From the NCBI GenBank assembly GCA_020726405.1, contig DYSB01000005.1:1-45121 (forward strand): a stretch of 45,121 bases of DNA. The letters run 5' to 3'. The translations under genes were made by a program, and so were the position numbers. The DNA is from Acetofilamentum sp. GTDB taxonomy: Bacteria; CAIWAD01. Shown one piece after another: positions 14,688-41,064 of the stretch. Positions within the stretch are counted from its first letter, which is position 1. The number at the start of each line of letters is the position of its first letter. The notes under the pieces were generated by a model. The model saw only the letters and a program-made list of their open reading frames with translations. It searched no databases and had not been told where the DNA came from.

Positions 14688-14825
14688 GGATTTCCCCTTC
14701 ATATTTAGCTGCGGAAGCTGTTGGACAAGTGCCGGCCAGGGTAACTCCCGCATGCTGGGAATCCCACGCAACCCTGCGCCCGGCAGGGATTTGAGCAGCA
14801 CCGCAGCGCTTGCTGGGCAGGTCGG

Positions 14826-18436: not shown

Positions 18437-20353
18437 TCAGCGTCGATAGTGGACGCGCAGCTGCAGCGCGCGGCCGGACTCCAGCACGGTGGCGCCGGCG
18501 CTGAACGGGTTGCGCGCGTAGGCCAGATGCTGGACGTAGGCGTGGTCCAGCAGGTTGTCCAGCTCCAGCGAGAACTCCAGGCTTCTCCAGGCGGCGCCCA
18601 GACCCAGGTCCAGCCGGTTCCAGGCGCCGGTGGGCCGTTCGTTCAACGTGGCGCTCACGCGGCGCTGGGCGGCGGACCAGCTGTGACGCAGCCAGACCTC
18701 CCCCGCCAGTGCGGGCAGCGGCCGGCGCAGGGTGCTCTCCACCAGCAGGGGCGACATCTCCGGCAGGGCTTCGCCGGCCTCCACATCGCGACCCCAGGCG
18801 AAACTGGCCCGGCTGTCCAGCCAGGCCCCGGCGTAACGCAACTGCGCCTCCAGCATGTCGGCCTCCGCGCCGCGCCAGGTCTGCACGGTCTGGCTGGTGC
18901 TGTCCGAAGTGGCGAAAGCCGCGCGCACCGGACTCGCGTAGCCGTTCGCGCGGGACACGGCGGCTTCGCACTCGAACGGTCCCCGGGCGATCCGGCCGCG
19001 CAGTGTGTGACGCAGCGCCGCGTCCAGCTCCGGGTTGCCCAACCACCAGGGCTTGCCGGCGGGTTTGCGCAGGTTCATCCAGAGGGCTTCCAAGCCCGGG
19101 TCGTCGCTGGCGGACTCCAGCAGCAGAGCGCCGTGCCAGGCTCCCGCGTGCAGGCCGTACTGGAGCGCCACGCCGTGGGTGAAGAACAGGCGACTCAGGT
19201 CGGGATCGGGATGCAGCCGCCCCAACACGCTGCGCACGGCGGTCTCGTCGCCGACCTGATCCAAATTGAGGCCCGCCCGCAGGGAGAGGGACCAGGGGCC
19301 GGGCAACCGCAGATTGTGATGGGCCTCGGCGCCGTACTGGCGCAGGTCGGGCAGCATGTGGTTCTTCAGCCGGCCCGCGGGCGTGTTGAAGTGGTTGTCC
19401 AGGTTCCAGCGGAACGCGGACACGTGCAGCCAGCGGCCCGTCAGTCCCACGACGGAGTTGGTGGCCTCCGAGACCATCATGGGCACGGCCAGCGGCACTC
19501 CGTTCACGCTGCGCAGTCCGTCGTCCATGGTATGCCCGGTGTGGTTGCCGTAGAGCTTCCAGCCCCTCCAGGCCACATGCGCAGCCAGATGACGTGTGAC
19601 ACGCTCGTCCATCTGCAGATAGGGAAAGGGCAGATCCTGGTTGAGGCTGGCGGACAGTCCGCCGGCCCAGGGGCCTTGCTCCGTCAGGAAGGCGGCCTCG
19701 CTGCTGCGGTAGTCCGCCGCGCCGCCGTAGGGATAGAGGTCCTGGAAGTCATGACCGTCACCGTCGCTGTAGCCGGCCCCCAGCAGATGCCGCACGCTCA
19801 GCCGCATGCCGGCCCCCTCAAGCCCCAGGGCCAGGGAATGCTCCGTGGCCGCCAGTGCCGAGCTCTGCAGGTCCGCGTCCCAGGCCAGTGCCCGGCCGGG
19901 TCGCTTGCGGTGGTAATCCAGCACGCCGCCCAGCCCGCACGAGGCCGCGCAGCAGCTGCGCATCCCTTCCAGTTCGGCCATTTCCGTGGGATTCAGCCGC
20001 GTGCCCGGGTTGTCCATCCGGTTGGGACAGGCGTTGGGGTGGCGCTCCCCGTCGATGAGGATCTCGATGTCGCCCCGGTTGAAAGTCCCGGCGCTGACGT
20101 CCCCCGTGAGCGCGGCTCCGCGTCTCACGGGCTGCAGGCCCAGGCTCCGCAGCGCCTGCTCCAAGGGGGCTCCGCTGAGCGGCGCGCGCTGCTGGCCAGG
20201 GGCCAAGCCCGGGGTCCGCACTGTGACTGGTTCGAGAAAAAAGAGCCGCAAGCTGTCCGGATCCGCCGGCGTGACCGCATGGGCCGGGCCGCCGGCGACG
20301 GTCAGCAACAGCAATGGGCAGAGAACGGCGCTGCCCCGCAAACCATGTTTCAT
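18437..20353 (-). CDS. TonB-dependent copper receptor (OprC/NosA-like)
   Basis: The ATG at 20353 has AGGAG upstream and starts a signal peptide (ending AGGPAHA); the protein has 638 residues. Residues about 40-150 form the plug with GDIEILIDGERHPNACPNRMD, and the rest is a beta-barrel ending in aromatic RALQLRVHYRR. The plug has Cys109-x3-Met113 and the barrel has His274-x-Met276 (GHTMDDGLR). This C-x3-M / H-x-M pair is the copper-binding signature described for Pseudomonas OprC, so copper uptake at the outer membrane is the best guess. Extra cysteines at 134, 135 and 139 are unusual. A 254-bp gap separates it from the symporter gene upstream; I see no known riboswitch in it. Confidence 0.85.
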   Translation of the reverse strand: MKHGLRGSAVLCPLLLLTVAGGPAHAVTPADPDSLRLFFLEPVTVRTPGLAPGQQRAPLSGAPLEQALRSLGLQPVRRGAALTGDVSAGTFNRGDIEILIDGERHPNACPNRMDNPGTRLNPTEMAELEGMRSCCAASCGLGGVLDYHRKRPGRALAWDADLQSSALAATEHSLALGLEGAGMRLSVRHLLGAGYSDGDGHDFQDLYPYGGAADYRSSEAAFLTEQGPWAGGLSASLNQDLPFPYLQMDERVTRHLAAHVAWRGWKLYGNHTGHTMDDGLRSVNGVPLAVPMMVSEATNSVVGLTGRWLHVSAFRWNLDNHFNTPAGRLKNHMLPDLRQYGAEAHHNLRLPGPWSLSLRAGLNLDQVGDETAVRSVLGRLHPDPDLSRLFFTHGVALQYGLHAGAWHGALLLESASDDPGLEALWMNLRKPAGKPWWLGNPELDAALRHTLRGRIARGPFECEAAVSRANGYASPVRAAFATSDSTSQTVQTWRGAEADMLEAQLRYAGAWLDSRASFAWGRDVEAGEALPEMSPLLVESTLRRPLPALAGEVWLRHSWSAAQRRVSATLNERPTGAWNRLDLGLGAAWRSLEFSLELDNLLDHAYVQHLAYARNPFSAGATVLESGRALQLRVHYRR

Positions 20354-20607
20354 GGGTCTTCTCCTGATGTGGGATGAGCTCAGTGTGCGCCCCGGGTGGG
20401 CAACCGACTGAACGGGTCCAGCGCCGGGACGTGCGGAAGCCCGCGCGTGCGCGCCGGCTGTCCGACAGAATCTCATCCGGGCATCAGTGGGGCGGGGATC
20501 CTCGCAGCGGGTGGCCCTGGCGCTCGGCGACCAGGACGGGCTCGCCCAGGGTCTCCCGGCGCGCGGGAGGCGCGGGGACGGGGCCCGGCGCGGGTCTTCC
20601 TCCCGGT

Positions 20608-22029
20608 TCAGTTGGTTGGCGTGTGACAAGCCCGGGACTGCGCCCTGCGGGAGATCCCGCGCCAACCCGTCAGGGCCAGCACGCCGGCCAGCAACCCGGG
20701 GTAGAGCGGCTCCAGACCCAGCGGATAGACGGGCCAGCCGTCCTGGTGGCGCAGCAGGCCGGCCAGCATCCAGCCGCCGCTGACCAGAGCCGCGGCGCCC
20801 ATCGAGGCCAGGCCGGGCGTCAGCCCCCGGCGCGAGCGCGGAGCGGATGGTCGCCAGAGAGCATCCAGCAGGACCGGCAGCAGCACGGGCACGCCCAGGG
20901 AGGCAAAGACGATCCACATCTGCACCACGGATTTCATCTTCCAGGCCAGCAGCGCACCCGCCGTGGAGGTAAGCAGCACGCCCCAGCGCACGCGGGTCTG
21001 CAGGCCCTGTTCCTCCCGCCGGCCCAGCAGGTCGCGGCTGAAAGTGGTGCCGGAGAGGAAGCACAGGCTGTCCAGGGTGGAGAGCACGGTGGCCAGCATC
21101 CCGCCCACAAACAGGCCCTGCACCACGGGCGGAAGCAGATTCGACAACTTCGGAAAAGCCAGCAGCGGTTGTTCCAGGTCGGGCAGCAAGGCGCGGGCAT
21201 AGAGGCCGCAGGCGGTGGTCAGCGCGTCGAAGACGAACCAGCAGCCGATACTGAGCCAGATCCCGCGGCGCGCCGTGCGGGCGTCGCGGGCCACGGCCAC
21301 GCGCTGGTGGAAGCCGGGGTCCACCAGGGTCCAGAGCGCCACGAAACCCCAGAGCACGATGGTGCTCCAGGAGAGCCCGCCGGGAATCCGCAGGTGTTGG
21401 GCGGGCACCTGAGCGGCCAGCCAGCCCAGGCCGCCCCGGTTCAGTATCAGCCAGCCCAGGGCCAGCCCGAAGCCGGCGAACATCAGCAGGAACTGGAGCT
21501 GGTCCGTCACCACCACGCTGCGCAGCCCGCCCTTCCACACGTAGCCCACGGTGAGCGCCACGGTGAGCGGCAGGCTCCAGGCCAGGGGCAGGCCGACCAG
21601 ACCACCCAGGATCAGTGCGGTCATCAGGATGTGCGGTGCCGGGGAGACCATCAGCAGTGTGTAGACCGCGGCCAGCCGCCCGGCGGCGGGACCATGCGCC
21701 CGCGCGATCTCCTCGGGAATGCTGAGTGCGCTGGAGCGGCGCAGGCGGTCCGAGAGGAAAAGCGCGTAGACGCCGGCGAAGATGTAGTAGAAGACACCCA
21801 GGGCCAGCCAGTTCACCAGACCCCATTGCCAGGTATACTCGCCCACCGCCAGGATGCCGCCGTACCACGTGCAGACCAGCGTGGCCACAAAGGCCGGCAG
21901 CGTGAGGCCGCGGCCCATGGTCAGGAACTGGGCAGCGTCGGCCCGGCGCCCCGCCCAGTAGCCCAGCAGGGGAACGCCCAGCGTGCAGAGGGCGATGATG
22001 AACAGGGAAAGGGGGCTGGCGTGGATCAC
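20608..22029 (-). CDS. Sodium:solute symporter (SSS family)
   Basis: The protein has 473 residues and about a dozen hydrophobic helices, the usual size for the SSS family. Recognisable blocks are FVATLVCTWYGGILAVGEY near TM2, YTLLMVSPAPHILMTALILG, GGLRSVVVTDQLQFLLMFAG (the SSS signature region) and GGMLATVLSTLDSLCFLSGTTFSRDL, where T/S-rich residues contribute to the second sodium site. The GTG start at 22029 overlaps the thiN stop (GTGA), so the two are translationally coupled. Because thiN salvages thiamine, and an SSS-type protein (ThiV) has been proposed as a thiamine-precursor transporter, thiamine or a related vitamin is a plausible substrate; this is inference from context. Confidence 0.86.
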   Translation of the reverse strand: MIHASPLSLFIIALCTLGVPLLGYWAGRRADAAQFLTMGRGLTLPAFVATLVCTWYGGILAVGEYTWQWGLVNWLALGVFYYIFAGVYALFLSDRLRRSSALSIPEEIARAHGPAAGRLAAVYTLLMVSPAPHILMTALILGGLVGLPLAWSLPLTVALTVGYVWKGGLRSVVVTDQLQFLLMFAGFGLALGWLILNRGGLGWLAAQVPAQHLRIPGGLSWSTIVLWGFVALWTLVDPGFHQRVAVARDARTARRGIWLSIGCWFVFDALTTACGLYARALLPDLEQPLLAFPKLSNLLPPVVQGLFVGGMLATVLSTLDSLCFLSGTTFSRDLLGRREEQGLQTRVRWGVLLTSTAGALLAWKMKSVVQMWIVFASLGVPVLLPVLLDALWRPSAPRSRRGLTPGLASMGAAALVSGGWMLAGLLRHQDGWPVYPLGLEPLYPGLLAGVLALTGWRGISRRAQSRACHTPTN

Positions 22030-22881: not shown

Positions 22882-25800
22882 TCAGTAGACCACGAGTACC
22901 GTGTAGAATTTGCGTGCGCCGGATTGCGGCAACTGCAGCGCGGGCGTGCTGGTTTCACCCACCTGGACCGGGACACCGTCGTAGGCGCCCGTGCTCTCGT
23001 AGATCCGGTAGGCCAGGGCGCCGGGCACGGCGCTCCAGCTCAGATAGATCTGGTTGTTGGCCGTCGCGATGGACAGGTCGTCGACGGTGGGAAGAGCGCC
23101 CTGGGGCAGCACGGCTGTGAGGCGAAAGTCGTCCACATACCAGCCTTCGCGGGCGGTGCCCGTGTCGCTGCCGAAGAGCAGGCGCACTTGCACGCTGGTC
23201 GTGCCGTCGGGAACGTTCAGGGTGATGGGTGCCCAACCGGCACTGTCCCCGCTGAACAGCATCCGCGGGAAGCCCAGCCAGGCGCGCAGGGCCGCCGTGG
23301 CCGCTGTCCAGCGCAGGTTGTGGGTCAGCGGGGGATTGATCGCGGCATCGATCCACTCACCACCATTCAAGCGCCATTGGATCAGGGCGCCGTCGTAGCA
23401 TGAGTCCGGGTAGAAGCTGGAGGTCTCCCCCTGGATCCAGCTCTGCAAGGAGGCGCGAATCTGGGCACTGCCGGGAGGAAGCGTGATCACGGGTGAGGTG
23501 AGAATCCCGCCGGCGCTGTTGGAGTAGTCCAGCGTGTCGGCGCCGCCGAACTTCCAGCTCTGGCTGCCCTCATTGGCCCGCGCGCTCTCCAAGTGCCACT
23601 GATCCGTGAGGCCGCCGCCCCCTTCATGTGTGAATGTGCTGACGCCATTGAAGCCCTCGACGAAGACCAGCGTGTGCACGGAGTACGTGAACAGCACGCT
23701 GGTGCCGCTGTTGGCATACTCCGAGGCGTCCACTGCACTGACGTTGTATTCAACCTGGGCGCCAATCGACTGGCCCGGGATCTGCGCCGTCCAATAATTG
23801 ACCAGCTGGGTCATGGGCACTGCATTCCAACTGCCGTTCGCCAGCCGCCAATTCAGCGTGGCCGAAGCGACGCCGCTGTAGTCCGTGATGGCGGCCTGCA
23901 CGGTGACGGTCTCGCCGGCGAAGACGATCCCAACGGGCGTGACGAGCAGGCTGGGCGGATGGGTGTCCTCCACGGGTCCGGTCGGGGTTGTGAAGTAGAT
24001 CGCGCGCCCGGCGGCCACCGGGCTCGTGCTGGTTGGCTGTTGGGTCCAATGCCGGATGGTCATGCCCCGCGTGCTGGATTCATCCTTGAAGCCCACGGTG
24101 CAGTAGGGGAAGTCCGTGTCGAGACTCTGCATGTCGTTGAAGACCGCGTATTGGAATTTGAAGGAGCCGTCGCCGGTCAGGGTCGGATAGAGGGCCGGAT
24201 CATAGAGCACCAGTTGAAAGGTGTTCGGCCCGCCGCTGGGGTTGGCCGCCAGATTGTACCAGCTGATCACGAAGGTGTGGGCCGCCGAGTCGTACCAGGT
24301 CCAGACGCCGCGCGAGGTGCCCGTGGTCAGGTGGTCGTCCCACATGGGGGCGATCATGGCGTCCGGCCCCAGGGAGGAGGGCAGCACGTGGTTGCGGAAG
24401 TCCCACTCCCTGAACCCGCCTTCGTCGAAGCTGAGGAAGCCGTTCGAACAGATCGCCGCCCGCGTGTAGGTCTGGCCGTAGTAGGTGAAGGCGAAGGGCA
24501 GGTCGACCCAGCGGCCGGCGTCCTGCTCGTTGCCGTCGTCGGTGAGCAGAACCTCGGTGCCCGGACCACCCTCAGGCGCGCTGATGGCGTACCAGGCGTA
24601 CTCCGCAGCCAGGGGCGAATTGTCGCCGTTCTCGTAGGCCCAGTAGCCGTAGGCGTCGGGACCGGTGGGATCCGAAGCGCTCAGCGTGCCGCCCACCGTC
24701 ACCACGATGAAGAAGCTGCCTTCCAGGCTGCCGTGGTGGCTGGTCCAGTCCACGCGCACGGGCACGGGCTGGCCCCGGTTCACCGAAGACAATGCGCCCA
24801 TGGTCACATCCACGTTGGTGGAGGCGCCCAGGGCCAGGTTGCCCACGCTGAGCGGCGAACCCGGCGTGGTCAGCATGTCCTCCACCTGGGGCGTGAAGAT
24901 GAGCTCCAGCTCCGTGCCGGCCAAGGCGCCCAGATTGGCCAGGTTGAATCGTACCGTGGCACTGGAGCCGGGCTCCAGCGCGCCGACGGGATAACTGGGC
25001 AACCCCGGCACCAAGTTCGGCGCGATGACCGGCAACCGGGCCAGCAGCGGGTAGCTCCCCTGGCTGCTGCCCACTTGCAGCAGAACGGGCAGCTGGGTGC
25101 CGCTGGGCAGGCCCTGGGCGGGGGCCACCTGCAGACCCGTGAAGGTGTGGCTGGCGCCCGCGGCCAGGCTGGCCAGGGTCAGGCCCGGATTGATCAGCAC
25201 GCCATACTGGCCGTCCAGCGTGGTGCCGATGTTCAGGTTGGTCAGGGCCGCGCTGCCCTGGTTGGAAATGGTCAACGCGGCGGCCTGGAGCGTGGCGTTG
25301 GGCAACAGACCCGCGCCGACATTCACGCCGGTCAGCGCCGGATTGGCCGTGCCCGTGCTCACCGTGACGGTGTTCAACAGCGGCACATGGCGCCGATGCG
25401 TGGCCGTGACGTGCAGCGTCCCCGGCTGCAGGCCCGTGAACGCCACGGTGACCTGGCCGTTCTCGTCCGTCAGACCACGGGCCTGGATGTCCGTGGCCAG
25501 GTTCTGCCAGGCGCAGACGACCACGCCCGCCACCGGCTGGCCGCCTGAGGTCAGGGTCAGCGTCAAGTGGTTGGCCCCCGCGGGCAGCGTGGCCGGCACG
25601 GCGGCGCTTAACGGAGCCAGCGCGCCCGCCCACTGCACAGTGCCCGGGTCGCCCATCAGATTGCCCCAGTAGGCGAAGTTGGTCGCGTTGCCCTGCTCGC
25701 TGGGCGGCAGGGTGCGGTAGAGTTCATACTTGCCCTGCAGCAGGCAGGCACCGACCTCCGGCACGTCGTACTCCAGCAGGCCGCCATAGTACCCGCCCAC

Positions 25801-27303
25801 CACCACGTTGTTGTAGCGCGTGTGAGTGCTGGAAGTGGCAAAGCCCAGGCAGGCCACGGCGCCACCCGGTGTGGCGGCGTCGCCGGCTCGCAGGAAGGAC
25901 TCGGTGAAGTCGTCCCCATAGTCGAAGTCGCCTGTGGAACAGGTGAAGATGGTCGCCACCGGCGTGCGGGGCCCCTGCGCCAGGGAGGTGATGATGCTGT
26001 TGGAGAGCCCGTCCATGCCGATCCAGCCGCGGTAGTTGTAGAAGGAGATGCCGCTGTTGAACCACGAAGGCAGCTGGGCGGCGTCCACGCAGAAATTTGT
26101 GTCGATGTCGCTGTAGCCCCGCCGTTCCACCAGCTCGGAGGCGATACCCCGGCTCAGTTGTTTCATGGAGAGGTAGCATGCGCTGCTGCCCACCTGGAAG
26201 CTGGCGTGAGTGAGCCAGCTGGAGTTGCCCGAATAGGGGGCCGACTCGTACTGGAGAATCTTGTTGCACACCGTGGCCAGCTGGGCGGCGTTGTCCACGG
26301 ACAGGCGGCCCACCGCCACGTCTCCCAGGATGTCGTCGCCTTCGATCATGGCGTAGAAATGGTCGTAGCCGGTGCCGTCGGTGGGCAGATTGTAATCGCC
26401 ATCCACGTCACCCACCAGCAGCACAAAGGCCACGGGATCGGCGCTCTGGTATTCCGTGGCGATGCGGGCGCGGATCTCGGTGGTCGTGAAGGAGACCTGC
26501 GAATCCGTGACCACCACCACCGGATGGCCCTTCTTGCGTTTCCAGTCCAGCAGGGCCGTCAGATAGGGATTGGTCGCGCCGGCGCTCCTGACGAAGACCA
26601 GGTACTTGCCCGGTAGGGGCCCGCGATCGAAGAGCAGGTCGCGCAGGGCGCCGTCCTCCGTCGCGGTGCGCACCACCTGGCGCTCCAGCAGGCGGTCCAG
26701 CGATGTGTCACGCGCAGGCAGTTCGTAGGTGCGCGCGTTGCGCAGATCCTCGCCGGCGAAGGACAATTCAAAGACCATGCGCGACCAGACCCGGGCTTCG
26801 CCCGTGACGGGATTCACCTGCACAGGGAATAGGCTGGCTTTGGCCACGCGTTGGTTGCGCATCAGGGCCGGTTCGCCCAACTCCCAGGCCTGGGCGGGCC
26901 AGAATTCAGCGGTGGAGTAGACGACCTCGTCCCGCACCCAGGGCAGCGGAAGCTCGGCATCCGTGGACAGGCGCTCCTGGCAGGGCATCACGTCCAGGCC
27001 CGGCAGGATCTCCCAATCCCCCTCCACCAGCCGCAGCTGGACACCGGAGCGGTCCGGCAGTTCGAACAACTCCTGCACCGAGGGCAGGTCCGGCGCTCCG
27101 GGCCGACCGATCCAACCGGCGCCGTCCAGGGTGACTTCGAAGCCCGTGCCCGTCTCCGCCGGATTGAACTCCGGCGGGTCGAAGAGCACCTCCACCAGCC
27201 GGCCCGTGGCCCCCGACGTGGCGCGCACGTCCACCACAGGCGCAGCCTGGGCGGACACTCCCAGCGCCAGGACTAGCAGTCCGGCGCGCGTCCAGCGATT
27301 CAT
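22882..27303 (-). CDS. Gingipain-like (C25) multidomain secreted protein, paralogue 1
   Basis: The product has 1473 residues, with the start at 27303 after AAGGAG...GGGGAA. A signal peptide (1-20) and a gingipain-type propeptide (GAGWIGRPGAPDLPSVQ near 61-77) lead into a C25 caspase-like domain (about 230-560) with KYLVFVRSAG, FVLLVGDVDGDYNLPTD and GDVAVGRLSV. The nucleophile cysteine is present (TIFTCSTGDF, Cys455), but the place of the usual histidine, in NYRGW (423-427), is tryptophan. A carboxypeptidase-regulatory-like region, CARDB-like domains, a YGYWAYENGD beta domain (about 883), an Ig-like domain, a MAM/immune-inhibitor-like domain (about 1213-1400) and an FN3 tail follow. There is no FlgD-like module. 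It follows its paralogue by 32 bp. Peptidase activity is uncertain. Confidence 0.88.
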   Translation of the reverse strand: MNRWTRAGLLVLALGVSAQAAPVVDVRATSGATGRLVEVLFDPPEFNPAETGTGFEVTLDGAGWIGRPGAPDLPSVQELFELPDRSGVQLRLVEGDWEILPGLDVMPCQERLSTDAELPLPWVRDEVVYSTAEFWPAQAWELGEPALMRNQRVAKASLFPVQVNPVTGEARVWSRMVFELSFAGEDLRNARTYELPARDTSLDRLLERQVVRTATEDGALRDLLFDRGPLPGKYLVFVRSAGATNPYLTALLDWKRKKGHPVVVVTDSQVSFTTTEIRARIATEYQSADPVAFVLLVGDVDGDYNLPTDGTGYDHFYAMIEGDDILGDVAVGRLSVDNAAQLATVCNKILQYESAPYSGNSSWLTHASFQVGSSACYLSMKQLSRGIASELVERRGYSDIDTNFCVDAAQLPSWFNSGISFYNYRGWIGMDGLSNSIITSLAQGPRTPVATIFTCSTGDFDYGDDFTESFLRAGDAATPGGAVACLGFATSSTHTRYNNVVVGGYYGGLLEYDVPEVGACLLQGKYELYRTLPPSEQGNATNFAYWGNLMGDPGTVQWAGALAPLSAAVPATLPAGANHLTLTLTSGGQPVAGVVVCAWQNLATDIQARGLTDENGQVTVAFTGLQPGTLHVTATHRRHVPLLNTVTVSTGTANPALTGVNVGAGLLPNATLQAAALTISNQGSAALTNLNIGTTLDGQYGVLINPGLTLASLAAGASHTFTGLQVAPAQGLPSGTQLPVLLQVGSSQGSYPLLARLPVIAPNLVPGLPSYPVGALEPGSSATVRFNLANLGALAGTELELIFTPQVEDMLTTPGSPLSVGNLALGASTNVDVTMGALSSVNRGQPVPVRVDWTSHHGSLEGSFFIVVTVGGTLSASDPTGPDAYGYWAYENGDNSPLAAEYAWYAISAPEGGPGTEVLLTDDGNEQDAGRWVDLPFAFTYYGQTYTRAAICSNGFLSFDEGGFREWDFRNHVLPSSLGPDAMIAPMWDDHLTTGTSRGVWTWYDSAAHTFVISWYNLAANPSGGPNTFQLVLYDPALYPTLTGDGSFKFQYAVFNDMQSLDTDFPYCTVGFKDESSTRGMTIRHWTQQPTSTSPVAAGRAIYFTTPTGPVEDTHPPSLLVTPVGIVFAGETVTVQAAITDYSGVASATLNWRLANGSWNAVPMTQLVNYWTAQIPGQSIGAQVEYNVSAVDASEYANSGTSVLFTYSVHTLVFVEGFNGVSTFTHEGGGGLTDQWHLESARANEGSQSWKFGGADTLDYSNSAGGILTSPVITLPPGSAQIRASLQSWIQGETSSFYPDSCYDGALIQWRLNGGEWIDAAINPPLTHNLRWTAATAALRAWLGFPRMLFSGDSAGWAPITLNVPDGTTSVQVRLLFGSDTGTAREGWYVDDFRLTAVLPQGALPTVDDLSIATANNQIYLSWSAVPGALAYRIYESTGAYDGVPVQVGETSTPALQLPQSGARKFYTVLVVY

Positions 27304-27335
27304 CTTATTCCCCGTTCTCCTTGGTTCGGTCCGCA

Positions 27336-30300
27336 TCATTTCACCTGCGGGGCATGCCGCTCGAGGACCGTCACGGGCTGCCAGCCCGCGCGGGCGGCGG
27401 CCAAGGCGGCGCTCTGGTCGTCGCGCACGCCACGCACGTCGAAGCAGCGCATGCCCTGACCGGCGGACAGGGTGACACTGGTGCCTGTCACGATGGCGTC
27501 CACCGAGTTGCGGATCTCGTAGGCCGCGCCACCGTACACGCGGTAGGCGGCGGATCCATTGCCCGTCCAACTGAGCTGCACGCCGTTGCCCGCCGGGTTG
27601 ATCTGCAAGTTCTCCACCGGCGCCAAGTGCACGTGCCCGGTGGTCAACAGCAAGGCCTGCCCGCTGACCACGGCCGCCGCGTTGACACCCAGCACGTCGT
27701 TGTTCAGGTAGGTGATGCCCACGGTGCGCGTGCTGTTCTGGTGGCCCACCGTGCAGCTGGAGGCGTCCGTCACCTGCAGGTACTGCGCGAGGACCGGTGT
27801 GTCACCGGTGACGGTGGGGTACACGTTGGTGTTGAGGAAGACCAGTTGGAAGGTCTGCAGGTTGTTGGTGCCGTAGCGCGGCACGCCGATCCACGAGACC
27901 ACGAAGCGGTCGCCCGCGACGCTGGCCGCCGCCCGCACCTCGCCCGCAGTGCCGGGGTTGAGGTCGTCCCAAAAGGCGCAGATCATGTTGGCTTCGCCCT
28001 GGCTGGCCGCCAGGGTCGAGTTACTGTAGGCGGCTCCCCCGGTGCTGCCCAGCGCGACCCAGCCGTTGGAGCAGACGGTCAACGTGGTGAAGCTCGTGCC
28101 GAAGTAGGTGACGGGGAAGGGCAGGTCCATGGTCTGTGAGACGTCGTCGGAGTCCACCAGCGGGGTGCCCTGGCCGGCGATGTCCATCCACACGAAGTCC
28201 GGGCCTTCCACCGCGTCCATGCTGTCATACCAGCGGTAGCCGCCGCCGTCCGGACCGGTGGGGGGATTGCCGTCGACGATCGTGTAGCTCAAATGTCCGC
28301 TGTCCGCCGAGTTGGGCACCGCCGCGCTGTCCATGGCCCGGACGTAGTACTCCACGCTGCTGCCCAGGCTGTAGGCGGGCAGGGCGCCGACCCAGCTGTC
28401 TCCATTCGTGTGAAGCATGGCGCTGCTCTGCCAGGCCCCGGCCCCCACGCGGTGGAGGAGCAGGGCGGAACTGATCGCCGTCACGTCGCTGATCGTGCAG
28501 TTGACAGTCGGGGTCTCGCCGGGCTGCACGAAGGTCAGCGGCACGACCGCGATCACCGGCGGGGCCGCGTCCACCTGCACGGTGTAGGACGTGGTCGCCG
28601 TCGTGGTGACGTTGTGGTTTTCGGACGCATCCGTGGCGTCGATCTGGAACTCCACCTGCGTGCCCGCGCTCTGGCCCGGGATGGTCCCCGTGTACCACGT
28701 GCCGTCGTAGGCCATGGCCAGCGGGGTCCAGGCGCCGGCGTTGATGCGGTAACGCAGCGTGACGCTGGCCAGCCCGCTCATGTCCGAGGCCTGGGCCTGG
28801 ACCGTGACGGGGGACGGGGCGTAGATCGTGCCCACGGGCGTGACCATCACCGTCGGGGGGATGACGTCCACGAAATCACCGGACAAGGTGCTGACGTAGA
28901 TGGCCCGCCCCGCCGCGACCGTTGTGGTGGTGGTCGGCTGCTGGGTCCAATGGCGCAGGGTCAGGCCCATCGTGCTCGTGTGGTCCTTGAACCCGATGGA
29001 GCAGTAGGGGAAGTCCGTCTCGGCGGTCTGGGTGTCGTTGAAGGTCTGGTACTGGAACTTGAAGGGACCGTCCCCCGTGCTGGTCGGATAGTAGGCCGGA
29101 TCGTAGAGCACGAGCTGGAAGGAGTTGGGTCCGCCGCTGGAGTTGGCGCTCAGGTTGTACCAGCTGATCACGAAGGCGTGGGCCGTGCCGTCGAACCAGG
29201 TCCACGCACCGCGCGTGTTGCCGGTGGTGAGGTGGTCGTCCCACATGGGGGCGATCATGGCGTCCGGTCCCATGCTGGTGGGGAAGGTGTGGTTGCGGAA
29301 GTCGAACTCCCCGAACCCCGCTTCGTCGAAGCTGATGAAGCCGTTGGAGCACACCATGGCCTGCGAGTAGGAGCGCCCGTAGTAGTTGAAGGTGAAGGGC
29401 AGGTTGACCCAGGCGCCGTCGTCCTGCTGGTTGCCGTCGTCCGTCAGGGACACTTCGGTCCCGGCCCCGCCCTCCGGCGCGCTGATGGCGTACCAGCTGT
29501 AGGTCGGGGCGTACCCGGAGGCGTCGCCGTTCTCATAGGCCCAGTAGCCGTAGGCGTCGGGGCCGGTGGGATCGGTGGCTGACAGGGCCGCGCCCACGGT
29601 GAAGAGGAAGGTGTAGGAGCCGCTGATGCTGCCGCCCTGGCTGGTCCAGGCCACGGTCAGGGGGACGGGTTGGCCCCGATTGGCGCCGTCGGCCACCGTG
29701 AGGTTGAGCACCGCCGAGCCGGTGCCCCCCGCCGCGATGGTTCCCGCGGAGATGGCCCCGCTGTTGACCGTCAGCACGTCCGGCAGGGTGGATGTCACCG
29801 TGAGGGAGATGCCTGTTCCGGACACGGCGCCCGTGTTGCGCAAGGCCAGCGTGACGTTGCCGGTCTGTCCGGGGCTGAGCGTGCCGGTGACCGAGTTGGG
29901 CGTCAGCTCCGGACCCGCCAGCGGCACCAGGGCCTGCAGGGGATAGGTGCCCTGGGTGCTGGCCACGGACAGGCCCAAGGGCAGGACCGCGTCGTCCCCC
30001 AGTGTGCCCAGCGGGCTGATGGTCAGGCCATTGAAAGTGTACGAGGCGCCGGCCGCCAGGCTGGCCACGCTCAGCGTGGGCGTGTTGATGCTGCCATAGG
30101 CCGGCGGCAGGCTGGGGGTCAGCACCAGGTTCGTCATCGTGGCGCTGCCGCAATTCTGCAGCGTGAGACTCACCGCCTGGGCTCCGCCACCCGGCAGCAG
30201 GCCGATGCCCGCCCCCACCGAGGCCACCGTGGGCGCAGCCGTCGCGGCACCCACGGTCACCGTCTGCACCAGGGGCTGATGGCGGTGCTCCGTCGTCGTC

Positions 30301-32207
30301 ACGTACACGGTCCCGGCCTGCAGGCCGCTGAAGTTCAGCGTCACCTGCCCGGCGGCGTTGGTCAGGCCCTTCACCTGGATGTCCGTGGCCAGGTCCTGCC
30401 ACAGGCAGACTGCCGCGTCCGCCACCGGCTGGCCGCCGCTCGTCACCGTCAAGGTCAGGTAGTTGGCCCCCAGGCCCAGGGTGGAGGGAGTGTTCACGGC
30501 CAGGGCGGCCGGAGTGCCGGCCCACTGCTCCGTGCCCGGGTCGCCCATCAGGTTGCCCCAGTTGGCGAAGTTCGCCGCCTGGTACTGCTCGCTGGGCGGC
30601 AGCGTGGCGTAGAGTTCGTACTTGCCCTGCAGCAGGCAGGCGCCCACGCTGGGCAGGTCATGCTCCAACAGTCCCGAGTAGTAGCCGCCCACGACCACGT
30701 TGTTGTAACGCGTGTGGGTGCTGGAGGTGGCGAATCCCATGCAGGCCACGGCGCCACCCGGGTTGGAGGGGTCGCCCGCCATCAGGAAGGACTCGGTGAA
30801 GTCGTCCCCGCTGTTGAAATCGCCCGTGGAGCAGGTGAAGATGGTGGCCACCGGGGTGCGCGGGCCCTGGGCCAGCGACATGATGGTGGTGTTGGACAGC
30901 CCGTCCATGCCGATGTAGCCGCGGTAGTTGTAGAAGGAGATGCCGCTGCTGAACCAGCTGGGCAACTGGGAGGCGTCCGCGCAGAAGTTGGTGTCGATGT
31001 CGCTGTAGCCCCGCCGTTCCACCATCTCGGCCGCGATGCTGCGGCTGAGGTGCTTCATGGACAGGTAGCACGCGCTGCTGCCCACGTGGAGGCTGGCGTG
31101 GTTGAACCAGCCGGTGCTGGCGACGTAGGGCGCGGACTCGTACTGCAGGATCTTGTTGCAGACCGTGGCCAGCTGGGTGGCGTTGTCCACCGACAAGCGG
31201 CCCACGGCCACGTCGCCCAGGATGTCCGTGCCGTCCACCGTGGCGTAGAAGTGGTCGTAGGCGGTGTCGTCCGTGGGGATGGCGAAGGTTCCGTTCACGT
31301 CGCCCACCAGCAACACGAAATCCACCGGGTTGGCGCCGGTGTATTCGGCGATGATCCGGTTGCGGATGTTGCTCGTGGTGAAGCTGATGTCGTTCTGGCT
31401 GACCAGGACCACCCGGTGGCCCTTCTTGCGCTTCCAGTTCATCAGGTCCACGAAGGCCGGGTTGGCCTGGGCCGTGGTGTTGGCGAAGACCAGGTAGTTC
31501 CCGGGCAGCCGGCCCGTGTCGAACCAGCCCGTCTCCAGGGGGGCCGCATCCGGGGAATCCACGGTGGTGATCTGCTGGCGAACGGCGCGATCCAACGGCG
31601 AGTCCTGGCTGGCGAGCTGGAAGGTCCGCGCGTTGAGCGGGTTTCTTCCCTCGAAGCGCACGTCGAACACCATCCGCTGCCAGACCTTGGCCGTCCCGGT
31701 GACGGGGTTGACCTGGACAGGTTGGAAGGAGGCGGTCACCACGCGATGGTTGCGTAGCAGCGCCGGCGTGCCCAGTTCGTAGGGCTGACCCGGCCAGAAG
31801 GCATTGGTGGCATAGCGGGCTTCGTCCTCCACCCAGGCCAGCGGCAGCTCCGCATCCGTGTGCAGGCGCTCCTGGCAGGGCAGGACGTGGATGTCCGGCA
31901 CGAGTTCGAAATCGCCGTCCACCAGGGTCAACTGCACGCCCGAGAAATCGGGAATCTCCAGCAGGCGCTGGACGCTGGGAAGATCCGGCGCACCGGAACG
32001 GCCGATCCAACCCGCGCCGTCAAGCAGGACCTCGTGCCCGCTGAAGCCGCCCTGGTCACTCTCCACGAACTGGGGAGCGTCGAAGGTGATCTCCAACTGC
32101 CAGGTCTGCCCGTTCCCTACGGGCTGCAGCGAGAGGGACGGGGCTGCGTACAGGCCTCCGGCCATGAGCAAAGCCAGAACCAGGGCGTGGGGGGTTCGCC
32201 ACAACAT
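27336..32207 (-). CDS. Gingipain-like (C25) multidomain secreted protein, paralogue 2
   Basis: The product has 1623 residues and is first in the pair. The ATG at 32207 has GAGG upstream and starts a signal peptide. Domain order matches paralogue 1 up to the YGYWAYENGD domain (about 879): propeptide with GAGWIGRSGAPDLPSVQ, C25 domain with VLLVGDVNGTF and GDVAVGRLSV, nucleophile motif TIFTCSTGDF (Cys459). The histidine position, NYRGY (427-431), is tyrosine. The C-terminal half differs: two Ig-like units with PPTVMVTPVG and PPVIAVVPL, a second beta domain of the same type (about 1319) and an FN3-like tail, but no MAM domain. A good promoter lies about 90 bp upstream. The pair arose by tandem duplication followed by exchange of C-terminal domains. 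Confidence 0.88.
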   Translation of the reverse strand: MLWRTPHALVLALLMAGGLYAAPSLSLQPVGNGQTWQLEITFDAPQFVESDQGGFSGHEVLLDGAGWIGRSGAPDLPSVQRLLEIPDFSGVQLTLVDGDFELVPDIHVLPCQERLHTDAELPLAWVEDEARYATNAFWPGQPYELGTPALLRNHRVVTASFQPVQVNPVTGTAKVWQRMVFDVRFEGRNPLNARTFQLASQDSPLDRAVRQQITTVDSPDAAPLETGWFDTGRLPGNYLVFANTTAQANPAFVDLMNWKRKKGHRVVLVSQNDISFTTSNIRNRIIAEYTGANPVDFVLLVGDVNGTFAIPTDDTAYDHFYATVDGTDILGDVAVGRLSVDNATQLATVCNKILQYESAPYVASTGWFNHASLHVGSSACYLSMKHLSRSIAAEMVERRGYSDIDTNFCADASQLPSWFSSGISFYNYRGYIGMDGLSNTTIMSLAQGPRTPVATIFTCSTGDFNSGDDFTESFLMAGDPSNPGGAVACMGFATSSTHTRYNNVVVGGYYSGLLEHDLPSVGACLLQGKYELYATLPPSEQYQAANFANWGNLMGDPGTEQWAGTPAALAVNTPSTLGLGANYLTLTVTSGGQPVADAAVCLWQDLATDIQVKGLTNAAGQVTLNFSGLQAGTVYVTTTEHRHQPLVQTVTVGAATAAPTVASVGAGIGLLPGGGAQAVSLTLQNCGSATMTNLVLTPSLPPAYGSINTPTLSVASLAAGASYTFNGLTISPLGTLGDDAVLPLGLSVASTQGTYPLQALVPLAGPELTPNSVTGTLSPGQTGNVTLALRNTGAVSGTGISLTVTSTLPDVLTVNSGAISAGTIAAGGTGSAVLNLTVADGANRGQPVPLTVAWTSQGGSISGSYTFLFTVGAALSATDPTGPDAYGYWAYENGDASGYAPTYSWYAISAPEGGAGTEVSLTDDGNQQDDGAWVNLPFTFNYYGRSYSQAMVCSNGFISFDEAGFGEFDFRNHTFPTSMGPDAMIAPMWDDHLTTGNTRGAWTWFDGTAHAFVISWYNLSANSSGGPNSFQLVLYDPAYYPTSTGDGPFKFQYQTFNDTQTAETDFPYCSIGFKDHTSTMGLTLRHWTQQPTTTTTVAAGRAIYVSTLSGDFVDVIPPTVMVTPVGTIYAPSPVTVQAQASDMSGLASVTLRYRINAGAWTPLAMAYDGTWYTGTIPGQSAGTQVEFQIDATDASENHNVTTTATTSYTVQVDAAPPVIAVVPLTFVQPGETPTVNCTISDVTAISSALLLHRVGAGAWQSSAMLHTNGDSWVGALPAYSLGSSVEYYVRAMDSAAVPNSADSGHLSYTIVDGNPPTGPDGGGYRWYDSMDAVEGPDFVWMDIAGQGTPLVDSDDVSQTMDLPFPVTYFGTSFTTLTVCSNGWVALGSTGGAAYSNSTLAASQGEANMICAFWDDLNPGTAGEVRAAASVAGDRFVVSWIGVPRYGTNNLQTFQLVFLNTNVYPTVTGDTPVLAQYLQVTDASSCTVGHQNSTRTVGITYLNNDVLGVNAAAVVSGQALLLTTGHVHLAPVENLQINPAGNGVQLSWTGNGSAAYRVYGGAAYEIRNSVDAIVTGTSVTLSAGQGMRCFDVRGVRDDQSAALAAARAGWQPVTVLERHAPQVK

Positions 32208-33209: not shown

Positions 33210-35513
33210 CTATTTAAGATGGGCCACCCGCAGGCTGGCCGAGCCGCGGGGACCGCTGACCCGCAGCAGCAGCAGGCCGGAGGGCAGCGCCTCCCAATTC
33301 CCGCCGGCCAGCGTGACCATCCGACCGTCCGCCCCGCCCGCCGGCAGATCCTCCTGGTGGAGGCGCTGGCCGGCCAGATTGAAGATCTCCAGCCGGGCGG
33401 GTCCGGCGAAGCCCGTCAGGGTCAGGCGCAGGCCGCCGTTGAAGGGGTTGGGCGCCGCGGCCAGCGTCAGTTCGGCCGTGCGGGGCCGCAGGGCGGGCAG
33501 ACCCGTGCCGTCGTTGGGCAGGCCAGGGCTGGGGGTCAGGGCCTGCCACGGGCCCGTGACGTCGGGCAGGCGGCCCCAGGCCACGTCGTCCTGCTGGGGG
33601 CCAAAGTCCACCCGGTCCAGCACCGTCAGGCCGTCCACGTCGCTCAGCACCAGGGATTCGCCGTCGCCGCTCAGGCGGAAGCCCGCGTGCAGGCCGGTCT
33701 CCTGCTCCTCGTTGTCGCACCAGATCAGCAGATAGGCGCCGCCGGCCAGTTCGCCCGTGCCGGCGGGAAAGGCCCAGTTGCCCGGATCGTCGGGATCGTC
33801 GCTCAGGTGCAGGCCGTCCAGCAGCACGGGCTCCGTCCCCGGATTGACCAGCTCGGCCCAGTCCTCGTGGTCGCCCGCCGGATCAGTGATGCCGTTCTCG
33901 TTCAGCGCCAGGAACTCGTTCAGCACCAGCCGGGGCGCGGCGGGCCAGCCCAGCTCCAGCGGCCGCGGCGGGTAGAGGTGTGTGCGGGCCAGCTCGTCCA
34001 GGGCCAGCACCTGCAGCTCCAGGCGCGTGCCAGGGGCCATGGGCGGCAGGGCGCCCTGGTAGCGGTCGGCCAGCCGCAGCACCGGAGCCTGTGCCTCGCC
34101 CGTGAAGGGCATGGCGGCCTGCTGCCACTCGGTCGCGCCGACCTCACGCCAGCGCAGCCAGCACTCCAGGGAGGCGTCGTGGACGAAGGCAGCGGCGCTC
34201 ACGCGCAGGCTGTCGCCGGGCAGCGGCGGCTGCGCGTCCAGGTGATACACCACCGGACCAGCCGACTGCCAGGCCAGCTGCCCGGGCAGGCTGGCCGCGC
34301 GTCGGTCCAGGAACTCGCGCAGGCCGCGCTTGACGTGGGCGTTCTCGTAGTCGCCGCCAAAGCCCTGGCTGAAGTCATTCAGGGTGAAACCGTAGTCCAG
34401 GGTGCGGAAGGAATCCGTCGCCGCCGCGGGAGTCAGCTGCACCAGCAACTCGTCCAGCCGGGGCTGCCAGGCGGCGGGTTGCAGGGAATGGGCCAGGTGG
34501 TGTTCCAGTATGTGGGTGTAGAGGTTGCGCCAGCGCGGCCGGGAGAGCAGGCGGTCCGCCAGGGGCCGGTTGCTGTTGCCGAAGGAGTAGGGATTGCGCT
34601 GGGACCAGTCCACGCCGAACCAGTCCACGCCGAAGGTGTTGTCGTAGTCGTAGGGGATCAGTGTCATCCGGTCGTCCACCGGATCGTGATACAAGTAGTA
34701 GTTGTTGTTCAAGTACCAATAGTCGTCCCAACCGCCGGTCAACACGTTGACGGCGAAGTACTCCAGCACGCCGGCCACGTCCAGGTACTGGTGCAGGGAA
34801 TCCTCCAGCGCATTGCCCGAGGTGTCGTGCAGGATGCGGATCAGCCGGAAGAGCGCCGAGTAGTCGTCCTCCTCCTCGTTGCTGGTCAGCTCGTAGACGC
34901 GCCGGCCGTCCTGCTCATGCTTGTAGTCCTCCGGGCTGTCGCCGCGCCAGGCCAGATCCGCCGGGTAGAGGCACTTCCAGAGGTTGCCGTCGGGGTGGCG
35001 GACGTTCTTCTCGAGGAACTCGTCGTCCACGTGCTCGACGGAGACGTAGAGCCCGAAGTAGTCGCCGTTGATCCACAGCTCGCCATGGGAGGCACGCGAG
35101 GCCACGTGGCCGATGCGACCGAACAGGTCGAAGCAGAGCTTGCTGCGCGTGATGCACGGGTCGTTGTGCTCGCCGTTCAGGTTGAGCTTGTCCACGCCGT
35201 GCACCTCGCGGCCGGGGACGAAATCGTTGAACGAGATCTTGAAGGACTTCTTCTGGACGTTGCGACTGGTGTTGCCGCGCAGGCGCAGGCCCACGTCCGC
35301 CACCTGTTCGTCCAGGTAGAGGTTCCGCAGGTGGAGCTGGGCCAGGTGCAGGGAGTCGCTATCCTCGTTGTCGTAGATCCACTGCAGGGCGACGGGATCG
35401 ACACTGACCTCGTAGCGCGCCACCTGGCTGTCGTCGTAGAGCATCCAGGAGTCGTCCTGGGCGCGGGCGCCGCCGGGCAGCAGGCCCAGCAGGATCAGCA
35501 GAACAAAGGGCAT
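33210..35513 (-). CDS. CotH-type surface protein with lamin-tail and sorting modules
   Basis: The product has 767 residues with a signal peptide (MPFVLLILLGLLPGGARA). Residues about 30-420 are a CotH kinase-like domain: VGLRLRGNTSRNVQKKSFKI, NGDYFGLYVSVEHVDDEFLE (150-168) and LIPYDYDNTFGVDW, which carry the likely ATP- and metal-binding acidic residues. Residues about 525-660 resemble a lamin-tail domain (VLNEFLALNENGI), and the C-terminus is the FlgD-like sorting module (AAAPNPFNGGLRLTL). It is therefore expected on or outside the outer membrane. Whether it phosphorylates other surface proteins, as CotH does for spore-coat proteins in Bacillus, is unknown. It starts 272 bp from the divergent MFS gene, with a dispersed repeat between, and precedes crcB. 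Confidence 0.9.
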   Translation of the reverse strand: MPFVLLILLGLLPGGARAQDDSWMLYDDSQVARYEVSVDPVALQWIYDNEDSDSLHLAQLHLRNLYLDEQVADVGLRLRGNTSRNVQKKSFKISFNDFVPGREVHGVDKLNLNGEHNDPCITRSKLCFDLFGRIGHVASRASHGELWINGDYFGLYVSVEHVDDEFLEKNVRHPDGNLWKCLYPADLAWRGDSPEDYKHEQDGRRVYELTSNEEEDDYSALFRLIRILHDTSGNALEDSLHQYLDVAGVLEYFAVNVLTGGWDDYWYLNNNYYLYHDPVDDRMTLIPYDYDNTFGVDWFGVDWSQRNPYSFGNSNRPLADRLLSRPRWRNLYTHILEHHLAHSLQPAAWQPRLDELLVQLTPAAATDSFRTLDYGFTLNDFSQGFGGDYENAHVKRGLREFLDRRAASLPGQLAWQSAGPVVYHLDAQPPLPGDSLRVSAAAFVHDASLECWLRWREVGATEWQQAAMPFTGEAQAPVLRLADRYQGALPPMAPGTRLELQVLALDELARTHLYPPRPLELGWPAAPRLVLNEFLALNENGITDPAGDHEDWAELVNPGTEPVLLDGLHLSDDPDDPGNWAFPAGTGELAGGAYLLIWCDNEEQETGLHAGFRLSGDGESLVLSDVDGLTVLDRVDFGPQQDDVAWGRLPDVTGPWQALTPSPGLPNDGTGLPALRPRTAELTLAAAPNPFNGGLRLTLTGFAGPARLEIFNLAGQRLHQEDLPAGGADGRMVTLAGGNWEALPSGLLLLRVSGPRGSASLRVAHLK

Positions 35514-39392: not shown

Positions 39393-40232
39393 CTACTTGG
39401 AGAGTTCGAGCAGGGCATCCCGGTAGGCCTCGCCGCGCTGGGGATCCAGGCTGTCCAGCCGGCTCAGACGCTGGAGGCCGTCCACGTCCCGACCCTGGAC
39501 CAGGATCTCCACCAGGGAGCGGGAATTGGCCTTGAACCAGGGGGCCAGCTGAGTGGGGTTGTCGATGCGCTCCGCCAATTCCAGCGCCACGCGCACGGCC
39601 TTCCAGGCGTCGTAGGGGCTGTTCTGCTTGGAGCGGAACCACCAGGCCGTGTGGGTAACCCAGCGCAAGGTGCGGTAATCCTTGTTGCGCATGTCCAGCA
39701 GGCGTTCGAGGCGTTCGTTGCGATCGTCCCAGCCATCCTGCTGCTCGCTGAACATGGCCAGGCCGCCCAAGCGCCGGGCGCGCTCGAACAGGGGCGTACC
39801 ACCGAACTCGGCCAGCTTGTCGTACTCGTACCCGATCACCTGAAGGATATGGAAGTCAAGCATGCTGAGGAAGGAGTCGAAGTTGTCCTCATCGTGCTCA
39901 AAGCGGCCTTCGGGAATCCGGAAGCGCCAGAGGCCCTCGTCGATGCTGAAGTCGCCCTTGTTGCCGCCGGCGAACAACCCCATGTACTCCGTGGCCGAAC
40001 CGCCCTCCATGGCGTTGCGGACCTGGATAGCCAGGGGAATGCGCAGGGTCAGGGTCGTCTCCTCCGGGTCCCAGTCCACGCTGTTCAGGTAGTCGGTCAG
40101 GCGGGTTTCCAGATCGAACAACTCCGCCCGCTGCTCGGGTGTGAGTTGGATGAGGTTGAGATTGAGCTCCGGCACCACCGTCAACGCCAGGGCGGAGGGC
40201 AGCCAGAGCAGCAGGGCAAGCCAGTAACGCAC
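39393..40232 (-). CDS. porD: PorD (DUF4835) family, type IX secretion-associated protein
   Basis: The start is the GTG at 40232, five bases after GGAGG; the longer open frame upstream has no signal peptide. The 279 residues begin with a signal sequence (RYWLALLLWLPSALA) and match PorD/DUF4835: ELNLNLIQLTPEQRAELFDL, LTDYLNSVDW, then the hallmark FHILQVIGYEYDKLAEFGGTP (127-147) and DGWDDRNERLERLLD. In Porphyromonas gingivalis PorD is needed for gingipain secretion. Together with the PorV-like gene and sorting modules on several enzymes, it supports a type IX-like secretion system in this organism. Its start codon is only 10 bp from that of the divergent gene. Confidence 0.82.
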   Translation of the reverse strand: MRYWLALLLWLPSALALTVVPELNLNLIQLTPEQRAELFDLETRLTDYLNSVDWDPEETTLTLRIPLAIQVRNAMEGGSATEYMGLFAGGNKGDFSIDEGLWRFRIPEGRFEHDEDNFDSFLSMLDFHILQVIGYEYDKLAEFGGTPLFERARRLGGLAMFSEQQDGWDDRNERLERLLDMRNKDYRTLRWVTHTAWWFRSKQNSPYDAWKAVRVALELAERIDNPTQLAPWFKANSRSLVEILVQGRDVDGLQRLSRLDSLDPQRGEAYRDALLELSK

Positions 40233-40245
40233 GAGGACCTCCGTG
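40230..40245. promoter_or_regulatory. Interleaved ribosome-binding sites of divergent porD and neighbour
   Basis: The 16 bases CACGAGGACCTCCGTG hold two GTG start codons facing apart, with the Shine-Dalgarno boxes of each gene crossing the middle: GAGG (40233-40236) for the plus gene and GGAGG (read from 40242-40238) for the minus gene. The next in-frame codons upstream of the plus GTG include a stop, so no earlier start is possible. Confidence 0.7.
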
Positions 40246-41064
40246 AACCGCGCACAGTGTATCAAATGCCGGCCGTGGCCGCTGATCCTGCTGGTCGGCC
40301 TGAGCGGCCTCGCGCCCGCCGCCGGCGCCGCGGCCCTGCGCTCCAGTCGGGCCCGGGATCCCTGGCTGCACGCGGCCTGGAGCCTGGACAGCCTGCCCGG
40401 GCCGGCCGTCCTGTTCGAGGGCGGCCTGGCTGCGCGCCGGCCCTCCTTCTGGGTGGGATCACGGCGGCTCTTCGGCCTGCGCGAACTGTCCAGCGTCGCC
40501 CTGGCCGGCGTGTTGCCGACAGAGTGGGGCAACTGGCAGGCCGGCGGGCACGTGCTGACGGCGGGCACGTGGCAGGAGGGCCAGTTCCTGCTGGACTGGC
40601 AGCCCCCTGGCACGCGACCGTTGCAGGCCGGACTGGGGCTGGAGCTGCGCCGGGTCAAGGCGGGCGACTGGGCAGCCCGGGCCGGTTGGCTGCGCGGTCT
40701 GGCGGACTGGCGCCAGGGTCCCCTGCGGCTGGGCGGTTGCCTGGCCCTGCCGCTTCCCGGTTCGAATCCGACCCCGGAGTGCCGGGTGAGCGCCCGCAGC
40801 CTGGCGGCGGGTTGGCGGCTCACGCGGTCCTGGGCCTTGGTCTGGGCTTGGGAGCAGGAGGGAATGGAGCGCGGTGAGCAGTTGGGGCTGGTCTGGGAGA
40901 CCCGCGGCCAGGGACTGGCCGCCACGTGGCGCGCTGGCCGGGGCTGGGAACTGGCCGGCCGGCTGCGCTGGCGAACCTTTTGCCTCAGCGCCTCGTGGTG
41001 GAGCCATCCCGTGCTGCCGCCCACGCCCGCCTGGGGCCTGACCTGGCGACGGGAGGAACCATGA
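40243..41064 (+). CDS. Predicted outer-membrane/envelope protein, unknown
   Basis: A GTG start at 40243 with GAGG six bases upstream gives 273 residues; an in-frame stop at 40225-40227 excludes any longer start. A signal peptide (ending AGAAALRSS) precedes alternating beta-like segments rich in W, R, G and L (WNWQAGGHVL-like strands, FWVGSRRLFGLRELSSVALAG), as in outer-membrane barrels. I do not recognise a family. It overlaps the next gene in ATGA, so the pair is translationally coupled and divergent from porD, suggesting an envelope or secretion role by context only. Confidence 0.65.
   Translation: MNRAQCIKCRPWPLILLVGLSGLAPAAGAAALRSSRARDPWLHAAWSLDSLPGPAVLFEGGLAARRPSFWVGSRRLFGLRELSSVALAGVLPTEWGNWQAGGHVLTAGTWQEGQFLLDWQPPGTRPLQAGLGLELRRVKAGDWAARAGWLRGLADWRQGPLRLGGCLALPLPGSNPTPECRVSARSLAAGWRLTRSWALVWAWEQEGMERGEQLGLVWETRGQGLAATWRAGRGWELAGRLRWRTFCLSASWWSHPVLPPTPAWGLTWRREEP

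Follow-up and report, generated by a model that had tools for sequence, protein, structure and literature searches.

Tandem gingipain-like C25 proteins without the usual catalytic histidine belong to a deep clade with a candidate rebuilt cysteine active site

Two adjacent genes, p1 and p2, encode gingipain-like proteins that keep the nucleophilic cysteine of the C25 fold, lack its classical histidine and carry a histidine further along the chain, at a place that aligns with loop L5 of RgpB. Rather than forming a subfamily of their own, they sit inside a deep clade that extends over many phyla. The safest statement about them is that a Cys-dependent active site seems to have been rebuilt, not abandoned. 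Our preferred reading, which we hold tentatively and at a little under an even chance, is that p1 and p2 are secreted zymogen-type Cys-dependent enzymes of the C25 fold, in which the L5 histidine would replace the old histidine in its role.

Genes, domains and fold

The window, which is the whole stretch of DNA analysed (45,121 nucleotides), is one complete contig; the draft genome it comes from is high in GC and 3.06 Mb in size. Both genes lie on the reverse strand and encode predicted secreted C25-fold proteins. The upstream gene, p2 (27336-32207, -; paralogue 2 of the sequence-only reading), is an open reading frame of 1623 aa and of the NYRGY type, and p1 (22882-27303, -; paralogue 1) encodes 1473 aa of the NYRGW type, its reading frame having been combined with a check of the start. 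Translation of p1 likely begins at the ATG at 27303, which gives the 1473 aa, or at an ATGA-overlap start at 27339; from the 27303 start the signal peptide, judged by eye, would be MNRWTRAGLLVLALG. The TTG at 27570, the start of the listed reading frame, was rejected as spurious, and would overlap p2. The gap between the genes is ~32 bp, and the ATGA overlap would couple both if p1 starts at 27339.

By profile and by fold p1 and p2 are homologues of family C25. Their scores against PF01364 (Peptidase_C25) are 141.2 bits for p1 (catalytic domain at 25642-26568, -) and 141.4 bits for p2 (30531-31478, -), where the curated cut-off is 23. No NCBIfam model is specific for this type, and Pfam places both proteins within PF01364. 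A putative inhibitory propeptide, as in C25 peptidases, is present as PF08126 (Propeptide_C25), at 48 bits in p1 (residues 56-185; 26749-27138, -) and 53.9 bits in p2 (residues 46-190; 31638-32072, -), together with structural matches to the pro-domains of RgpB and Kgp (Foldseek, p2 against the RgpB pro-domain 4ief_A, TMt 0.78). The AF2 model of p2 (residues 20-660, 78 sequences in the alignment) has a pLDDT of 90 and a pTM of 0.90. In the PDB it is matched best by RgpB (TMt 0.84), followed by Kgp and the pro-domain of RgpB; as modelled, p2 has an RgpB-like zymogen fold. Both proteins nevertheless lack the histidine that defines C25, and classing them with the canonical peptidases of the family would be wrong.

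Active-site residues

The sequence-only reading had placed the nucleophile motif TIFTCSTGDF in both proteins and NYRGW (p1) or NYRGY (p2) where gingipains have NYxGHG, and all of these were found where it had put them. NYRGY covers residues 427-431 of p2 (30915-30929, -), so that Y431 stands at RgpB His211, and NYRGW covers residues 423-427 of p1 (26023-26037, -). The equivalent of RgpB Cys244 is Cys459 in p2 (codon 30831-30833, -) and Cys455 in p1 (codon 25939-25941, -). The later histidine lies in STHTRYNN, residues 496-503 of p2 (30699-30722, -; His498 codon 30714-30716) and 492-499 of p1 (25807-25830, -; His494 codon 25822-25824), and the residue numbers first assigned to these cysteines and histidines are exact. 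As had been claimed, this histidine is shared by the two proteins, but it is not strictly invariant across the clade. A canonical histidine at another in-register position of p1 or p2 was sought and rejected, since the alignments show Y or W in the H211 column (p2 residue 431). Chance or sequencing error was also set aside, the pattern being present in two paralogues and about 160 homologues. Both proteins carry the full set of clade features: no His211, with R429, C459, T497-H498-T499 and N502-N503 (p2 numbering).

In the p2 model Cys459 lies three residues beyond the end of one strand, and H498 caps the helix after the following strand. H498 aligns with RgpB Trp284, and position 496 with Gln282. 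This register was read from a MAFFT alignment continued without gaps rather than from superposed structures, and the loop lengths differ by ~4 residues after it; hhalign of the two profiles ends just before the L5 loop, and so bears out the fold while leaving the precise register of L5 to the alignment. In RgpB, Gln282 and Trp284 lie on loop L5 and belong to S1 (PMC4357240). By this alignment, positions 496 and 498 are i and i+2 on the same loop, and in caspase-1 the equivalent loop supplies Ser339, which is reported to be hydrogen-bonded to the catalytic Cys (PMC10088814). On this register the L5 histidine would sit beside the substrate pocket, on the S1 wall. At the position of RgpB Asp163 the His-less clade has T, C, P or M, whereas all 38 Trp284-type members have D, E or N; since the acidic S1 residue is absent, neither p1 nor p2 is expected to be specific for Arg or Lys.

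Census of homologues

The source genome encodes 12 C25 proteins, of which 5 have NYxGHG or NYTAHG and 7 have YRG[W/Y/F]. After the next strand, six of the latter carry TH[TS]x[YW]NN and one carries HTRTQYNN, and the five canonical proteins have no histidine at this site. The wider census drew on the source genome and the four nearest of the relatives available, 14 further genomes reached via loci, a small domain-wide sample and 67 loci from a scan of GTDB genomes with strong Pfam scores among the matches listed, a selection that disfavours the His-less clade rather than favouring it. A histidine equivalent to His211 was found in 118 of 261 non-redundant C25 domains, none of which (0/118) has a histidine at p2 positions 496 or 498. 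Among the 143 without it, 131 have an L5 histidine (111 at position 498 and 20 at 496). The same division appeared in a later held-out sample (n=51, gathered by profile and Pfam scores), where the L5 histidine occurs in 0/33 domains with His211 and in 14/18 without. Loci of the GTDB scan defined by NYRG[WY][IV]GM and not by STHTRYNN, so that the histidine played no part in finding them, have it in 56/58 cases. A motif search that created the pattern was rejected as an explanation, because domains entered both the census and the held-out sample on their profile or Pfam scores.

Conservation around the cysteine is high. The Cys459 column is kept in 142/143 of the census members without His211 and in 18/18 of the held-out ones, and R429, C459, T497, T499, N502, N503 and G478 are each 94-99% conserved in the clade, R429, T497, T499, N502 and N503 being conserved specifically there. 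H498 is the best conserved histidine among the clade-specific columns, and at 76% it falls below T497, T499, N502 and N503. Neither L5 histidine is present in 16/161 members without His211, most of which still keep the cysteine. A second histidine enriched in the clade is p2 residue 319 (p1 residue 315), in a DHFY motif where it adjoins the universal Asp318; it is found in 62% of the clade against 4% of canonical members. H319 is a possible base but a lesser rival, given that only 62% of the clade has it.

Two variants were also seen. The only clade member in which the cysteine has become serine (L279:1-1122, -) has also lost the L5 histidine and one Asn, and is, from these residues, likely a true pseudo-enzyme. 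Another C25 variant (L192, L216, L227, L236, L253 and L254) has [HY]RDHG, with the histidine kept and Arg and Asp added, and SYSFVND as its L5 motif; the Arg of NYRG is common to this variant and the His-less clade.

Phylogeny and duplication

On a tree built with the trait columns removed, the presence of His211 changes once. The His-less proteins group in one clade (SH-aLRT 89, and 99 when the tree is more densely sampled), with records titled Cloacimonadota, Delongbacteria, Calditrichaeota, Neomarinimicrobiota, LCP-89, Eisenbacteria and Fermentibacteria, so the phylogeny of NYRG[WY] homologues proposed as a check returned a single group spanning many candidate phyla. Because the loss of His211 is one event on the tree, the mutual exclusion of His211 and the L5 histidine does not amount to many independent trials. 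Within the clade H498 and H496 substitute for each other on a few occasions (L077, L215 and a group of 15), H498 being lost where H496 is present. After correction for phylogeny this association is not significant, in a test that is underpowered because no more than two or three of the independent pairs are informative.

On the tree p1 pairs with p2 as its closest relative (support 98/98), and their duplication is therefore either young relative to the genus or homogenised by gene conversion. A new subfamily had been proposed for the pair: a large clade with the shared pattern does exist, but p1 and p2 themselves are a young tandem duplication inside it. Tandem C25 pairs also occur in relatives (L044, L047, L048 and L098).

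Downstream domains, selection and secretion

The C25 domains of p1 and p2 are 76% identical with a dN/dS of 0.33, and the adjacent Ig regions 50% identical with a dN/dS of 0.73, so that purifying selection acts more strongly on the C25 domain than on the neighbouring Ig region. The dS between the genes is 0.50 in the C25 domain and 1.03 in the propeptide, about half; the lower value may reflect gene conversion of the catalytic domain.

Beyond the Ig region p1 has one nidogen-like beta domain (residues 879-1125; 23929-24669, -; a weak PF06119 match and an AF2 beta model). p2 has a first copy that is 70% identical to it (residues 891-1120; 28848-29537, -) and a second (residues 1316-1540; 27588-28262, -) with 32% identity to p1 879-1125 (E 5e-25). 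The suggestion that the tails were shuffled after duplication stands as regards this second beta domain, but not as regards a MAM tail in p1, where no MAM domain was matched in Pfam even at E 5; the only hints of one in p1 are a weak match to the accessory region of M36 models and a low-ranked Foldseek match to meprin. Since this beta domain and the tail have matches in 73 open reading frames of relatives, the order propeptide, C25, Ig and beta domain is a stable architecture. No Por secretion tail (TIGR04183) was found at the C-terminus of p1 or p2, though the genome has 72, including those on five other C25 proteins (L002, L004, L007, L008 and L009).

Neighbouring genes are consistent with this secretion route in the lineage. 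A DUF4835 protein, of a family that we take to be the PorD-type one in type IX secretion, is encoded at 39396-41075 (-), and at 11862-14801 (-) lies the gene for a large protein of Ig repeats that bears a Por secretion tail; together these indicate that the lineage has type IX secretion. The gene directly upstream of p2, in the same orientation, encodes a CotH kinase-like protein with a lamin-tail domain (33210-35513, -), and a 1143-aa open reading frame at 18437-21868 (-) has no Pfam match.

What the rebuilt site may do

We propose that the active site was rearranged once, in the ancestry of the deep clade. The L3 histidine (RgpB His211) would have been lost as NYxGHG became NYRG[W/Y/F], and the new site would, in p2 numbering, consist of R429, C459 and the motif T-H-T-x-x-N-N on L5. 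The histidine of this loop (498, or 496 in some lineages) would most likely do the job of the old one, by hydrogen bonding to the scissile amide or the thiol, and would approach the cysteine from the S1 side. That H498 lies near Cys459 and has this role is predicted, as is the proteolytic activity of p1 and p2, which may serve to digest or process extracellular protein, with the beta domains used for binding. A stronger version, in which a clan CD clade moved its catalytic histidine from L3 to L5, giving a mirrored Cys-His(-Asn) site with hops between 498 and 496 while the gingipain fold stayed unchanged, is conceivable and somewhat doubtful. QM/MM calculations on caspase-1 have the cysteine proton go to the substrate, while the histidine assists by hydrogen bonding (PMC10088814); the same substrate deprotonation is assigned, by its authors' account, to legumain and RgpB (PMC10088814; PMC10882967), and H237A caspase-1 keeps partial activity (PMC10088814). 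If, as this work holds, the clan CD histidine assists by hydrogen bonding and its loss leaves caspase-1 partly active, help from the opposite wall is chemically plausible.

These calculations, and the residual activity of H237A, also speak for the main rival (PMC10088814, PMC10882967), an active Cys peptidase with no functional substitute for the old histidine. The substrate amide would activate the cysteine with help from R429 and the L5 Thr and Asn, and H498 or H496 would be only an S1 specificity residue, in parallel with RgpB Trp284 and Gln282. It is the main rival because H498 is less conserved than the Thr and Asn residues around it and is dispensed with in the 16 members noted above; the position of H498 at the S1 lid agrees with it, as does the missing acidic residue 163 of Arg/Lys-type members, by which S1 is changed. 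A specificity residue should, however, vary more across many phyla than the 111 and 20 histidines among 143 domains do, and is unlikely to be missing from every protein with His211, and we regard this account as rather unlikely.

The sequence-only reading had left open whether p1 and p2 are peptidases with a relocated base or pseudo-enzymes used as adhesins. If they are pseudo-enzymes, their secreted C25 domain would serve as a binding module, like an adhesin or an inhibitor, and the multiple beta domains would provide adhesion; the loss of the defining catalytic residue, the several Ig-like and nidogen-like domains and the many paralogues per genome all accord with this. The near-universal cysteine, surrounded by clade-specific and almost invariant residues, the retained propeptide and the tighter constraint on the C25 domain than on the Ig linker make it improbable. 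From the nearly invariant cysteine, the coincidence of the loss of the old histidine with the L5 histidine, the propeptide and the selection on the C25 domain, we infer that a relocated base fits better. A different cysteine chemistry on this fold, such as that of a transpeptidase or ligase of surface proteins in which R429 and H498 bind an acidic group, seems very unlikely. The fold does include the type IX secretion sortase PorU (PDB 6za2 is among the matches listed), the genome has its many type IX tails, and an Arg and a His near the cysteine would form a basic site; but p1 and p2 resemble PorU far less than they do RgpB, the presence of several divergent copies in each genome better fits a digestive or processing repertoire, and no linkage of p1 or p2 to a substrate was found.

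Nothing on a His-less C25 clade was found in the literature searched, which excluded most subscription journals, preprints, MEROPS and CDD, and migration of an active-site histidine from L3 to L5 within one fold is unreported in that literature. Rules that define active sites by an H...C dyad would probably score the whole clade as dead enzymes, although it makes up over half (7/12) of the C25 proteins of the source genome. In anoxic waters and sediments, protein may be broken down by its hosts, which include Cloacimonadota, Calditrichota, Neomarinimicrobiota and Fermentibacteria. If these proteins are active, either a catalytic histidine can migrate in one fold or clan CD enzymes can work without one, with direct consequences for the proposal, made from calculations, that histidine is not the general base in clan CD.

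Comparison with known systems

Gingipain-like C25 peptidases have been described in Ca. Stygibacter (Cloacimonadota), a phylum where the His-less clade is common, with a dockerin present; that account does not discuss active-site residues, so placement in or out of the clade is impossible (PMC8542988). PorU, a sortase on the C25 fold, is a weak relative with another architecture, and the two proteins reach only 16 and 14 bits against its NCBIfam model, where the cut-off is 420. Caspase-1 (C14) shares the clan CD fold, and its L5 lines S1 and touches the catalytic Cys via Ser339 (PMC10088814); in contrast to the present proposal its catalytic His237 is on L3, in the usual place, and it has no family-level homology to p1 and p2. 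The canonical C25 proteins of the genome (L001-L005) are of the same fold family, with the L3 histidine kept and no L5 histidine, and L005 keeps all of the RgpB-like NYVGHG, CVNG and STINQSW. RgpB itself (MEROPS C25, clan CD; PDB 1cvr, 4ief) is the closest known system. It has the same propeptide, caspase-like catalytic domain and Ig-like domain, has its nucleophile motif at the same place, and is the best structural match. Its CVNGDF is CSTGDF in p1 and p2, its NYTGHG loop is a shortened loop with NYRGY or NYRGW, and its L5 sequence S-T-I-N-Q-S-W is T-H-T-x-x-N-N; unlike RgpB, p1 and p2 have no His211, have an Arg in NYRG and lack the acidic residue 163 for a P1 Arg.
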